The notes: generated by a model not told the origin, from the sequence alone. 64,000 bases of DNA from Bacteroidota bacterium (GCA_014190575.1 BJGQ01000013.1:1-64000), one strand, 5' to 3'. Shown: positions 142-4,534, numbered from the stretch's first letter. Program-made: numbers and translations.

Positions 142-618
142 ATGAAAATTAAAAGTTTAATTCTCGCAGGTGTTTTCGCACTCTCTTGCTTTAGTGTAAG
201 TGCAAATAATTCATCACTGTTCTCTTACGATAAGAATGCAGTTAATGAAAGTTTGAAAAATGTATCCGCTGTAGAAAAATATGTGAACCAAAATGAAGGT
301 GTTACACTTAACTCATTAAATTCTGATGGAAAGAAATTAGTAGATGATGCTAATTTATACACCCTTAAATCTCAGTTAGATGGCCCAGCAGGTGTTCCTT
401 CATTTTTATGGGGTTTTGCAGGTGGCTGTATTGGTGGTATTACATTATTTGGTGGTGTTATTTTAGGGTTATTAGGCGTATTAGCAGTTTATCTTGTTAC
501 TCAAGATGGTGACGAAACCAAGAAAGCCTTAATGGGTTGTATTGTTGGAAACCTTATTTGGGTTGTATTCTTTGCTATATGGTTTATATTTGGTAATAGT
601 TGGTTTTTATTCTACTAG
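142..618 (+). CDS. Small exported Gly-rich two-TM membrane protein, unknown function
   Basis: A 158-residue protein. An in-frame ATG lies further upstream at 16, but the ATG at 142 directly opens a typical signal peptide (about residues 1-21, ending SVSA), so I start there. A polar, Asn/Ser-rich stretch (22-85) is followed by two hydrophobic segments: a glycine-rich one (about 87-119, with repeated GG) and a second (about 130-153). A short charged loop (DGDETKK) separates them, and there is one Cys in each segment (96, 133). I do not recognise a family. It lies 3 bases upstream of the LolA-like gene and heads a run of five same-strand genes, so a role in the same envelope process is inferred from position only. 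No clear Shine-Dalgarno; an A-rich leader precedes the start. Confidence 0.75.
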   Translation: MKIKSLILAGVFALSCFSVSANNSSLFSYDKNAVNESLKNVSAVEKYVNQNEGVTLNSLNSDGKKLVDDANLYTLKSQLDGPAGVPSFLWGFAGGCIGGITLFGGVILGLLGVLAVYLVTQDGDETKKALMGCIVGNLIWVVFFAIWFIFGNSWFLFY

Positions 619-621
619 TTT

Positions 622-1308
622 TTGCGCATTTCATTTAGATTTTTATTTTTTTTTCTTCTGTTGTCCAAGCCAATGCTTGGACAACAGTTTTTTAGGGTAA
701 AGGCAGACTTCTCTATTAAAGAAACTTTATCAAATGGCCAAAGTAGTTTAGTTATGGGTTCAGTTTATTTTAATAAAACTAAGGGCCAAATAGTATTTAA
801 AATAAATTTTCCGGAAAATTTTATTTCAGTTATCACTGATAGTTTTGTTTATACTATAAAAGATAATAAGATAACAGACAAAACACCAGGAGGTGGGTTG
901 CTGCAATTTTCAATTTTCAATCTCACCTTAAGTAGTAAGTTAAATAATTATGGTTTAGAGCAGTCACAGGTTTTTAAACTAACCAATGTGGTGAAAGAAG
1001 ATAGTTTTATTATTTCAACATGGAGCCCTGCTGTTGAGAAATTAAAAGAAATAACCGGTGATGTTTTAATCTCTCAAAAGAAAAAGCAACTATTTGGTCT
1101 GGTGTTTTTTGATAAAGACGGAAAACTTTTATCAAAGCAATTTTTTGAAGAGTATAAAAATTTTAAGGGACTTGAATTTCCCGGAATTATAACTCAAATC
1201 AATTTTATTGACGGTAAAGAGTTTTATAAAATTACTACATTTAAGAATGTGGTTGTAAATGGCATGAATGAAAACACTATATATAATTATTCTATTCCTG
1301 TTCAGTAG
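622..1308 (+). CDS. LolA-like outer-membrane lipoprotein carrier fold protein (putative)
   Basis: A 228-residue exported protein with a TTG start three bases after the preceding stop codon. Residues 1-20 form a signal peptide ending at LGQ. The rest is strand-rich with alternating hydrophobic residues, and the segments MGSVYFNKTKGQIVFKINFP and FVYTIKDNKIT resemble the half-barrel strands of LolA/LolB-type proteins. In that family the pattern is an apolar half-barrel that binds lipid moieties and shuttles lipoproteins across the periplasm. The assignment rests on overall pattern, not on an invariant motif. It overlaps the following YidD gene by 41 bases in another frame, which suggests tight co-expression. 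Alternative: an unrelated periplasmic beta-rich protein. Confidence 0.6.
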   Translation: MRISFRFLFFFLLLSKPMLGQQFFRVKADFSIKETLSNGQSSLVMGSVYFNKTKGQIVFKINFPENFISVITDSFVYTIKDNKITDKTPGGGLLQFSIFNLTLSSKLNNYGLEQSQVFKLTNVVKEDSFIISTWSPAVEKLKEITGDVLISQKKKQLFGLVFFDKDGKLLSKQFFEEYKNFKGLEFPGIITQINFIDGKEFYKITTFKNVVVNGMNENTIYNYSIPVQ

Positions 1309-1663
1309 TTTTTTTGTTTCAGCGCAAGAAGCAGGTAACCATATTGATTTCGACCGTCTTGTAGCTGCTATGGATCCGGGCATACATCATCACAAGTATA
1401 ATTACAAAGGAGTTCATAGCGAGGTTGATTTTGTTTTTACCTCACTTTTTATTTTTTATAAAAGTTTTGTTTCATCGCAGGATGGCAACTCATGCACATT
1501 TACTCCTTCGTGTTCAGAATATATGATTCAGGCAATCAGAAAAAAAGGAATGATTATAGGCACAATGGCCGGCTTTGACCGGCTAACACGCTGCAATGGC
1601 TTAAGCCCTGAAAAGTATGGGTATGATCAGGATAAACATGTTTTTATAGATCCTGTCAATTAA
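1268..1663 (+). CDS. yidD: YidD-family membrane protein insertion efficiency factor with N-terminal signal peptide
   Basis: A 131-residue protein. The C-terminal half carries the YidD hallmark: CTFTPSCSEY (residues 76-85), then KKGMIIG, then a third Cys in RLTRCN (109). Family YidD proteins are short inner-membrane-associated proteins linked to YidC-dependent membrane protein insertion. Unusually, this one begins with a signal peptide (about residues 1-20, ending VSAQ) and a 40-residue spacer, so the YidD domain would be exported or membrane-tethered on the periplasmic side. It overlaps the upstream LolA-like gene by 41 bases, and its last base is the first base of the next gene. It is not in the usual rnpA-yidC neighbourhood. 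Family call is secure; cellular location and role are inferred. Confidence 0.85.
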   Translation: MKTLYIIILFLFSSFFVSAQEAGNHIDFDRLVAAMDPGIHHHKYNYKGVHSEVDFVFTSLFIFYKSFVSSQDGNSCTFTPSCSEYMIQAIRKKGMIIGTMAGFDRLTRCNGLSPEKYGYDQDKHVFIDPVN

Positions 1664-2487
1664 TGAAAAGATATTTGTTTTTTGCTTTCGTGTTGTTTTC
1701 AATAACTTGCAATGCGCAGAATTTATTTGACTTGCAGCATACTCAGTCATTTGCAAATTACTTATATGAGTCAGGTCAGTTTAAGTTAGCTGCCGAAGAG
1801 TATGAACGCTGGTTGTTTTTTCAGCCAGGTAATGACACCGCATCATTGCAATTGATGAAATCTTATAGAAAAGGTGGATTGTATTTAGAAGGAATTGCTA
1901 AAACAAAATTGCTTTTTTCAGGAAATGAAAAAATGAATGAGCCTCAATCAAAGGAGTATTCAATGCTTCTTTTGTTAAACAGAAATTTTACAGTAGTCGA
2001 TTCGTTTTTAAAAACAGAAACAAGTTTTTCATCTGTTGACAGAGATTATTTGCTGATGAATGAGAATTTGTTGCAGAAAAAATGGAAAGCCGCAGAGCAG
2101 ATATATTTAAATAATAGTAACTCAGATTTAAGAGCTTTTGCTCCTTATTCAATTGTATTTAAGAGTTATAAAGAACTGCCGCACAGGTATGCCGGACTTG
2201 CGATGACCATGTCAACAATTATTCCTGGAACAGGAAAAATTTATTCCGGAGATTGGAAAGACGCATTGTTTTCAATTTTATTAATTGGGGCATCAGGCTA
2301 TCAATCTTATCGAGGGTTCGAGTCAAAAGGGGTTAAGAGCGCTTATGGATGGATATTCGGCGGATTCAGTGCTGGTTTGTATTTTGGAAATATTTATGGT
2401 TCATATAAGTCGGCTAAAGATTTTAATCACAGACATGAAAATGAATTGCTTAAAAAAGCAACTGATTTATTCAGTATTAATCTTTAA
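1663..2487 (+). CDS. Exported TPR protein with C-terminal IPGxGxxYxGD membrane hairpin (DUF5683-like)
   Basis: A 274-residue protein whose ATG shares its first base with the yidD stop. A signal peptide (about 1-18, ending CNAQ) is followed by helical tetratricopeptide-like repeats (about 20-165; for example YLYESGQFKLAAEEYERWL). From about residue 183 there is a membrane segment block opening with STIIPGTGKIYSGD and continuing through two hydrophobic, glycine-rich stretches. The same arrangement recurs in the next gene, so the two are tandem paralogues. The IPG-G-Y-GD pattern resembles the short hairpin of Bacteroidota DUF5683/TM2-like proteins. A scaffold role in the envelope is inferred; no enzymatic motif is seen. 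The 3' end overlaps the next gene by about 53 bases. Confidence 0.7.
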   Translation: MKRYLFFAFVLFSITCNAQNLFDLQHTQSFANYLYESGQFKLAAEEYERWLFFQPGNDTASLQLMKSYRKGGLYLEGIAKTKLLFSGNEKMNEPQSKEYSMLLLLNRNFTVVDSFLKTETSFSSVDRDYLLMNENLLQKKWKAAEQIYLNNSNSDLRAFAPYSIVFKSYKELPHRYAGLAMTMSTIIPGTGKIYSGDWKDALFSILLIGASGYQSYRGFESKGVKSAYGWIFGGFSAGLYFGNIYGSYKSAKDFNHRHENELLKKATDLFSINL

Positions 2488-3289
2488 TTTATTTCTGGCT
2501 TTTTCAATACAGGCACAGGATATAGCCGGTGTTTTTGATTTAGCCAATAAAATGAAACTGGAAGGAAATTATGAAGCTTCTATAAAATTATATCAGCGTG
2601 TTAGCTTTTTTGGTGATGGATATAAAAATACTGAATGCCTGATTGGAACTGCAGATTCATATTTTAATTTGAAAGATTATAATAAGGCAGCTGAATTTTA
2701 TGAATTTGCTTATTTCAGTACAACAAATGACAGCTTGAAAAATCTGATTGCGTTAAGCAAATCCGCAATTTTCATTTACAATAAAAAATTTCTGGAAGCG
2801 CTGCAAGAATTGTTCAGCATCGAGGCCGAAGAAGGAAGTGTAGCAAAAGCTAAAAATATTTATCTGGCAACAGCATATTATGGATTGAATAGATTCAATG
2901 ATTGCAAAACTGTTTTGTTTGATTTGATAAGTGACACTGTTTCAAAAACGCAATTGGATAAATTAATTAAAAGAGCTGAACGGGCGCAACGAAAAAATCC
3001 TAAAACAGCAAAGATTCTATCTATGATTATTCCAGGAATGGGGCAATTTTATGCTGGTGATATAAAAAACGGAATTAACTCTTTATTAATTACAAGTGCA
3101 TTTATGTATTTGATGGTTAACACTTCGATTCAATATTCTGTTTTCGAAGCTACCTCCGTTCTTCCATGGTTTTCACGATACTATGTTGGCGGATTTAACA
3201 GAGCTCAAACAATAACCATTAACAGAGTTGAAGATCGACAGTATCAAATTTATTTACAGATTATGAAAATTGTTGAGCAAAAAAGCTGA
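2435..3289 (+). CDS. Exported TPR protein with IPGxGxxYxGD membrane segment, paralogue of upstream gene
   Basis: The open frame extends back to 2285, but an ATG at 2435 (or 2441) begins a good signal peptide ending IQAQ, so I use 2435; length is about 284 residues. TPR-like helices follow (for example MKLEGNYEASIKLYQRV and YNKAAEFYEFAYF). Near residues 196-225 comes SMIIPGMGQFYAGDIKNGIN with a hydrophobic segment, the same motif as in the preceding gene. A short Arg-rich tail with aromatic residues follows. It ends one base before the convergent PLP enzyme and closes the operon. Function unknown; the duplication and shared architecture suggest the two products act together or assemble as a heteromer. 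Confidence 0.7.
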   Translation: MKMNCLKKQLIYSVLIFNLFLAFSIQAQDIAGVFDLANKMKLEGNYEASIKLYQRVSFFGDGYKNTECLIGTADSYFNLKDYNKAAEFYEFAYFSTTNDSLKNLIALSKSAIFIYNKKFLEALQELFSIEAEEGSVAKAKNIYLATAYYGLNRFNDCKTVLFDLISDTVSKTQLDKLIKRAERAQRKNPKTAKILSMIIPGMGQFYAGDIKNGINSLLITSAFMYLMVNTSIQYSVFEATSVLPWFSRYYVGGFNRAQTITINRVEDRQYQIYLQIMKIVEQKS

Positions 3290-4534
3290 CTAGTTTTTTA
3301 CAGCATTCAGGGCATTACTAAGGTCATCAATAATATCTTCTACATTTTCAATACCTACCGACAGGCGAATTAAGCCATCAGTAATTCCATACTTTAATCG
3401 CTCCGCTTTTGGTACAGGTAAGTGACTCATGCTTGCAGGATGCTGAATAATAGTATCAGCTGTTCCTAACGAAACTGCCAATGTGCAGAAAGAAATATTA
3501 TTCATCATTTCTATTCCGGCTTTCAATCCTCCTTTCAATTCAAAGCTTAACATGCCTGTAAAATTTCGCATTTGTTTTTTTATAAGTTCATAATCGGGAT
3601 GCGTTTTTAATCCACAATAATTTACATGTGCAATTTTATTGTGGCCTTGTAAAAACTCTGCAACTTTCATGGCGTTACTGCAATGCCGTTCCATTCTTAA
3701 TTCCAAAGTCTTCATTCCCTGAATTAAAGTCCACGCGTCAAATGGATTTCCGTTTGCTCCAATGAGTTTTAAAACCGGAATTATTTTTTGATTGAAGAAC
3801 GAAAAGTCTTTTCCTAATAAAACTCCTCCGATTGCTGTACCGTGACCATTCAGGTATTTTGTAGTGGAGTGCAAAACAAAATCAACATTGTATTGAAAGG
3901 GTTGTTGCAAATATGGAGTTGCAAAAGTATTGTCGACCGCACAAAAACAATTGTATTTTTTAGCTAATGCACTTAAAGATTCAATATCATAACAATCCAT
4001 CGTTGGGTTTGAAGGTGTTTCGATATATATCATTTTTATTGAAGAATCTTTTTTAAGAATATTTTCAACCAACGAAAGGTCTTTCAATTCAACAATCACA
4101 GGAGCAATATTTAAAGGCTCTAAAATCTGATGGAGTAATGCATTGGTTCCTCCATACAAAGTTCCTTGTGTTAGTACTTTTTCTCCTGGTTTTAAGAAGC
4201 TGAAAAAAAGAGCAGAAATGGCTCCCATTCCACTGCTGAAAATTTTGGATGCCAATTCAAGTTGTTCGCCTTTTTCATTTTTCAGGTTCCAGGCTTCAAG
4301 CGCTGCAATTTTTTTCTCAGCCATTTCAACCGTTGGATTGTGCCAGCGACCATATATATATCCTTCACGCTCCCCTTTAAAAATCTGCATGAGTTCATTT
4401 GCATCGTCGTATGCAAAAGTTGAGGTTGGATAAATCGCTTCCGTATGTGTATTAACACTTTTGTGCAAATCAACCTGTGAATGAACGCAAATGCTGCTGA
4501 AACCTTTATAGATTCTTTTTGTTTTATCTTTCAT
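3290..4534 (-). CDS. PLP-dependent Cys/Met metabolism enzyme (cystathionine gamma-synthase / methionine gamma-lyase family)
   Basis: A 414-residue cytosolic enzyme of normal family length. Features seen: SSGMGAISALFFSFLKPGEK and the LYGGT phosphate-binding stretch, the cofactor aspartate region (CAVDNTFATPYLQQP), and the PLP-lysine motif HSTTKYLNGHG. The C-terminal SLGTADTIIQHPASMSH and LIRLSVGIENVEDI stretches are also typical. Family members do gamma-elimination or gamma-replacement on homoserine esters, cystathionine or methionine. Sequence inspection alone does not separate methionine gamma-lyase from O-acetyl/succinylhomoserine sulfhydrylase or cystathionine lyase/synthase. It is a single gene, divergent from the DinB gene across an 83-base promoter region. 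Confidence 0.85.
   Translation of the reverse strand: MKDKTKRIYKGFSSICVHSQVDLHKSVNTHTEAIYPTSTFAYDDANELMQIFKGEREGYIYGRWHNPTVEMAEKKIAALEAWNLKNEKGEQLELASKIFSSGMGAISALFFSFLKPGEKVLTQGTLYGGTNALLHQILEPLNIAPVIVELKDLSLVENILKKDSSIKMIYIETPSNPTMDCYDIESLSALAKKYNCFCAVDNTFATPYLQQPFQYNVDFVLHSTTKYLNGHGTAIGGVLLGKDFSFFNQKIIPVLKLIGANGNPFDAWTLIQGMKTLELRMERHCSNAMKVAEFLQGHNKIAHVNYCGLKTHPDYELIKKQMRNFTGMLSFELKGGLKAGIEMMNNISFCTLAVSLGTADTIIQHPASMSHLPVPKAERLKYGITDGLIRLSVGIENVEDIIDDLSNALNAVKN

Follow-up and report, generated by a model that had tools for sequence, protein, structure and literature searches.

YidD is found in most bacteria and its role is poorly understood. In E. coli, the protein carries no signal peptide and resides on the cytosolic side of the inner membrane. 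Proteins with a LolA fold provide shelter for acyl chains or hydrophobic segments, and TPR domains bind protein partners. In those passages of PMC8082313 and PMC10502375 that cite Yu et al. (2011), YidD is described as an insertion efficiency factor linked to YidC/SecYEG. Furthermore, P. gingivalis LolA3 and F. johnsoniae LolA2 represent existing specialised lipoprotein/lipid side branches (PMC13103446, PMC11885536), and Bacteroidota dedicate LolA/LolB paralogues to special loci, e.g., for flexirubin synthesis (PMC11885536). YidD or TPR partners are mentioned in neither of these two papers on LolA paralogues (PMC13103446, PMC11885536).

The window analyzed here, a stretch of 64,000 nucleotides from a Bacteroidota bacterium (GCA_014190575.1 BJGQ01000013.1:1-64000; G000:C13), opens at a contig end. 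Its positions 142-3289 are filled by five genes on the + strand, termed g1 to g5, and a gene on the opposite strand abuts g5 at 3290. The features of this block are as follows:

142..618, + strand: g1, 158 aa; small hairpin protein predicted to be secreted; signal peptide, SLFSYDK..V motif and two hydrophobic helices (residues 100-116 and 134-150)
658..693, + strand: intrinsic terminator, 13-bp perfect stem followed by a T run; 3' of g1, within the signal-peptide codons of g2
622..1308, + strand: g2, 228 aa, TTG start; LolA/LolB fold, no lipobox; predicted to be carrier-like and periplasmic
1268..1663, + strand: g3, 131 aa; signal peptide followed by a YidD domain (1436-1618)
1663..2487, + strand: g4, 274 aa; signal peptide, TPR region and C-terminal TM2-like membrane hairpin (about 2200-2412)
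2441..3289, + strand: g5, 282 aa, start at 2435 also possible; signal peptide, TPR region and TM2/DUF5683-like hairpin; paralogue of g4

All five same-strand ORFs of the original prediction were recovered on the + strand at their predicted place. The 41-base overlap between g2 and g3 and the single base common to g3 and g4 proved exact, and g1 and g2 are separated by 3 bases; the accompanying statement that overlaps or gaps amount to 0-3 bases fails for g4/g5, where the overlap comprises 47-53 bases. Signal peptides, which had been claimed for all products, are represented by signal-peptide-like N-termini on five of five proteins and also on most of their relatives (g1 30/31, g2 54/63, g3 73/79, g4 74/79, g5 74/77). 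The assigned protein families held for the most part. Membership of g3 in the YidD family is certain (PF01809 with 67.7-68.8 bits vs. a cut-off of 27; NCBIfam TIGR00278 with 60.5 vs. 40), and the predicted LolA-like nature of g2 agrees with its modeled fold. The TPR assignment is reflected by matches of the g4 profile (A7) to consensus TPR chains in the PDB, and the supposed duplication of the TPR genes by the full-length alignment of g4 and g5 (hhalign 99.6%, E 4e-24).

For g2, an AlphaFold2 model computed from an alignment of 59 sequences reached a pLDDT of 94.7 and is predicted to adopt the fold of the LolA/LolB superfamily, i.e., an eleven-strand incomplete barrel closed by helices. The model matched LolA, LolA3, LolB and DUF1329 structures in the PDB (E down to 2.6e-10), with VIA Z scores of 15.5 to P. 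gingivalis LolA3 (9tp6) and 14.6 to LolB (9tpm). PF17131 (LolA_like) was matched by 28 of 59 relatives. g2 contains no Cys and lacks the lipobox expected of a LolB, and a lipobox-like stretch occurs in only 1 of 63 relatives. An orthologous relationship to P. gingivalis LolA3 was rejected since, despite the similar fold, identity is 8% and the A5 profile misses 9tp6. The same genome encodes a canonical LolA (G000:C21) and a canonical YidD (G000:C30) elsewhere, in line with the earlier suggestion that the module differs from classical systems; these copies rule out g2 as part of a classical Lol locus or as a LolA replacement, and g3 as a replacement of canonical YidD.

Export predicted for g3 extends to most of its relatives, as listed above. 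Its structural model was of moderate confidence (pLDDT 78.5) and yielded no structural match in the PDB, where no solved structure for any YidD relative was found. Among 72 relatives of g4, several showed a TPR match and seven a TM2 match, and the invariant motif PG.G..Y ... Y.GN..G was observed. Pfam hits of g5 comprise TPR_2 (3.6e-5, below the cut-off on its own) and, weakly, DUF5683. The C-terminal half of g4 (1663-2484) additionally showed a weak NCBIfam match to the Leptospira LIC11435 family, which hints at spirochaete relatives.

Relatives of the locus were gathered with g3 as sole seed, by means of protein searches in 61 related genomes followed by an alignment-based scan of named genomes, and this seeding brought in relatives with differing flanking genes. 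Among the 74 named loci found by g3 alone, g3, g4 and g5 follow each other in this order on one strand in 71, and g2 lies upstream of g3 in 57. The named carriers include Chitinophagales, Marivirga, Runella, Marinilabilia, Anaerophaga, Prolixibacteraceae, Cryomorphaceae, Melioribacter, Ignavibacteria, Kapabacteria and a Geobacter MAG. Moreover, nearly all of 148 Bacteroidota genomes of at least 90% completeness encode a single YidD, and 20 encode two; strong g4/g5 matches were obtained in exactly these 20 genomes, which represent six families, with 13 of 20 from one family, so that they are phylogenetically clustered and not independent. Two extra g4 matches (G124, G153) are weak and partial and concern the TPR part of long proteins. 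The association of the genes is far beyond chance, and the module is co-inherited in Bacteroidota and in some distant phyla. The genes are kept together outside the source genome, across Bacteroidota and beyond, so that the refutation named with the original prediction, a lack of joint conservation in other Bacteroidota, did not materialise. No mention of the module was encountered in publications that treat YidD together with TPR, TM2 or operons of Bacteroidetes. A defence system was discarded as an explanation, with no PADLOC match.

Overlaps are kept across loci for g4/g5 (73/76), g2/g3 (52/62) and g3/g4 (56/78), the first of them nearly always in one relative frame; the conserved g4/g5 and g2/g3 overlaps suggest translational coupling. 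In the Geobacter relatives, the module occurs in a two-gene YidD-TPR form only, and in genome G193 one 400-aa protein (L135:4099-5301) combines signal peptide, YidD, TPR and hairpin. Because of these pairs and this fusion, the core can be reduced to YidD plus a TPR-hairpin protein, the TPR gene having presumably been duplicated in the Bacteroidota form of the module. A gene for a PEGA-type lipoprotein precedes the fusion gene of L135, and the same arrangement is present before the core in L136. In modules devoid of g2, a barrel-like secreted protein of 240 aa was seen to be encoded before g3 (L124:4106-4825, L080:5257-5997, L095:5157-5873, L115, L116 and further loci).

Outside the block, the most common neighbors are small secreted proteins of one TM2 family, found in 19 of 60 lineages and ending mostly in DNPKFFMW. 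The profile of g1 matched this family (95.7%, E 9e-9). Since matches to the TM2 family in the 148 genomes were mostly generic TM2 domains and thus uninformative, the search was shifted to 18 genomes with known members of the family, where all full-length copies lie at the module. Similarly, the 19 genomes searched for the g1 family (A9) all encode it next to the module, and a single clear full-length-like copy lies at another place (G253:C96). Across 84 loci, g2 and a small hairpin protein co-occur in 45, a hairpin protein without g2 in none, g2 alone in 13 (several of which are cut by contig ends) and neither in 26, the linkage of 45 to 0 being significant at the lineage level (p 4e-8). At three of the 13 loci with g2 alone (L076, L078, L079), the gene immediately preceding g2 codes for a small secreted hairpin protein of yet another, third type. 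The module consists of the g3-g4-g5 core and a linked add-on pair, namely g2 with a small hairpin protein of the g1 or TM2 family.

In a tree of g3+g4+g5, g1-type and tm2-type modules occupy separate parts connected by a single change. Both types are present in L061, L071, L072 and L114, and every copy there groups with its own type. Therefore, hairpin protein and module stayed together. In these four loci and in L100, modules of the two types adjoin each other, arranged convergently or in tandem, and each has its own hairpin protein. At L094:1758-9000, a single module is surrounded by genes for five small TM2-family proteins whose C-terminal Trp is invariant.

The terminator following g1, whose stem doubles as coding sequence for the g2 signal peptide, has counterparts elsewhere: terminator-like structures were detected at the g1-g2 junction in 12 of 24 g1-type loci vs. 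3 of 204 other block junctions (0/58, 1/74 and 2/72), and in several of the 12 loci their sequences are unrelated. Judging from the sequence, g1 would be made in excess and g2-g5 by read-through. The predicted five-gene module accordingly stands as a set of genes conserved together and falls as one even unit, since the 13-bp terminator splits g1 from g2-g5; 'one five-gene unit' is better read as '1 + 4'.

The reading tentatively preferred, with somewhat less than even confidence, is that the locus encodes an undescribed periplasm-facing YidD complex, probably assembling or inserting hydrophobic small hairpin proteins at the outer side of the inner membrane. In this model, g3, a member of the YidD family, would cross the inner membrane and be held at its periplasmic face by g4 and g5, each putatively anchored by its C-terminal hairpin. 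g1, proposed to be a client or a dedicated subunit, would be exported by Sec, and its hydrophobic hairpin may be shielded by g2. The g3-g4-g5 complex would then take over g1 and aid its insertion or assembly into the membrane from the outer side, a possible parallel to ordinary YidD, which presumably assists YidC and SecYEG on the inner side. We infer the physical complex, this direction of transfer, the insertion activity and the expression levels involved. In other lineages, a TM2-family protein would take the place of g1, and we speculate that the TPRs read the conserved C-terminal tail of the hairpin proteins. The model draws on the conserved g3-g4-g5 order, the identical sets of 20 genomes, the kept overlaps, the YidD-TPR pairs and fusion, the link of g2 with hairpin proteins and the agreement between module clades and hairpin types. 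The terminator behind g1, as expected for an abundantly made product, also counts in its favor. Against it weigh the moderate YidD model with no structural match, the poorly understood role of YidD, the clustered genome sampling and the option that g1 is a structural subunit instead of a client. Moreover, the core stands without g2 and these hairpin proteins at 26 of 84 loci, so handling them cannot be its only task. A more specific version, i.e., an insertion or assembly machine on the periplasmic side in which secreted YidD and its hairpin-anchored TPR partners take small exported hairpin proteins from a LolA-fold chaperone and place them in the membrane from outside, with each module clade serving its own client family, is considered rather doubtful.

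The main rival to the insertion model is a role in sorting lipoproteins or lipids. According to this explanation, possible though on balance improbable, g2 carries lipoproteins or free lipids through the periplasm within a side branch for which g3-g4-g5 form the loading dock at the inner membrane, in place of or beside LolCDE, with g1 as membrane subunit of the dock. The best matches of g2 to LolA, LolA3 and LolB, the occurrence of PF17131 in its family, the missing lipobox, the precedent of dedicated LolA/LolB paralogues in Bacteroidota such as that for flexirubin (PMC11885536) and a lipoprotein gene adjoining the core in L135, L136 and the Geobacter relatives all agree with such a role. However, the block contains neither LolCDE-like genes nor a lipoprotein LolB, canonical LolA is encoded elsewhere, the core does without g2 at 26/84 loci, and the tightly linked partner of g2 is a small hairpin protein and not a lipoprotein; lipoprotein sorting by the module, one of the roles suggested originally, is accordingly no more than putative.

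It is unlikely that the proteins form a stable membrane structure, e.g., a channel, stress sensor or scaffold, with YidD as a structural component, g1 as the most abundant part and no insertion activity. Such a structure would account for the TM2-like or related hairpins of g1, g4 and g5 and for the unequal product amounts implied by the terminator, and the stress sensors RseB/MucB are also LolA-fold matches of g2 (Z 8.6-9.8). The neighbor survey, on the other hand, revealed no sigma/anti-sigma or kinase gene recurring widely beside the module, and the conserved YidD residues Y64, S69, C76, C82, S83, R105 and C109 are retained. Least probable is a general periplasm-side factor whose clients vary by lineage (small hairpin proteins, outer-membrane barrels, PEGA lipoproteins) and which needs g2 for some of them only: it would explain a small barrel-like gene of outer-membrane type directly before g3 in one clade without g2 (5 loci), barrel-like genes in the module neighborhood of nine lineages and the PEGA-type lipoproteins before the core in L135 and L136, but the barrel assignment is a sequence reading with no Pfam match, and neighbors of one clade may be hitch-hikers.

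If the periplasm-facing insertion or assembly complex exists as proposed, the cargo of LolA-fold carriers is not limited to lipoproteins, and an envelope module unmentioned in the literature examined would be common to Bacteroidota and several further phyla. Moreover, an exported YidD branch, tied in an operon to its partners and a likely client, would offer a clean setting in which to test what this protein family does.

Compared to known systems, g2 resembles the LolA/LolB/LolA3 carriers (PF03548, PF17131; 9tp6, 9tpm) in fold, size and signal peptide, whereas its identity to them amounts to 8-12%, neither PF03548 nor PF17131 is matched by g2 itself, a lipobox is missing and no LolCDE is encoded nearby. 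TM2 proteins (PF05154) share their domain with 25 of 26 members of the neighbor family and with some g4 relatives; g1 is related by profile but itself lies below detection by the PF05154 model. The neighbor family differs in its signal peptide and in a W that is invariant and located at the C-terminus or close to it (mostly as FFMW), a combination not seen over full length in generic TM2 proteins of module-less genomes. With DUF5683 (PF18935), the hairpin of g5 shares the PG.GQ.Y.G start, but the match covers only the first 25 of 151 positions and is below the cut-off.

Another known relative is YidD (PF01809/TIGR00278), whose domain g3 contains above the cut-off, and whose residues Y64, S69, C76, C82, S83, G94, G98, R105 and C109 are common to the g3 family and canonical members. 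In a tree built from a short alignment, 87 module YidDs group as a single clade, separate from 17 canonical sequences (support 0.83). At L136:3374-3745, a module YidD has lost the third conserved Cys and kept the Asp-Arg pair. Unlike canonical YidD, g3 bears a signal peptide and is encoded beside g2 and g4 instead of rnpA/yidC. The invariant S-P, C-R and H-P-W-G-G.G.D-P-V-P tail of canonical YidD is lost in module YidDs, C-R-x-x-P-T-C-S and C-H-P-W-G-G-x-G-x-D-P-V-P being replaced by C-x-F-x-P-S-C-S and D-R-L-x-R-C-N. Furthermore, module YidDs gain an invariant Asp at position 104, before the conserved Arg; as the search pattern for scanned loci held DR and thereby biased this count, it was taken only from nine sequences selected without the pattern, all of which carry D104.
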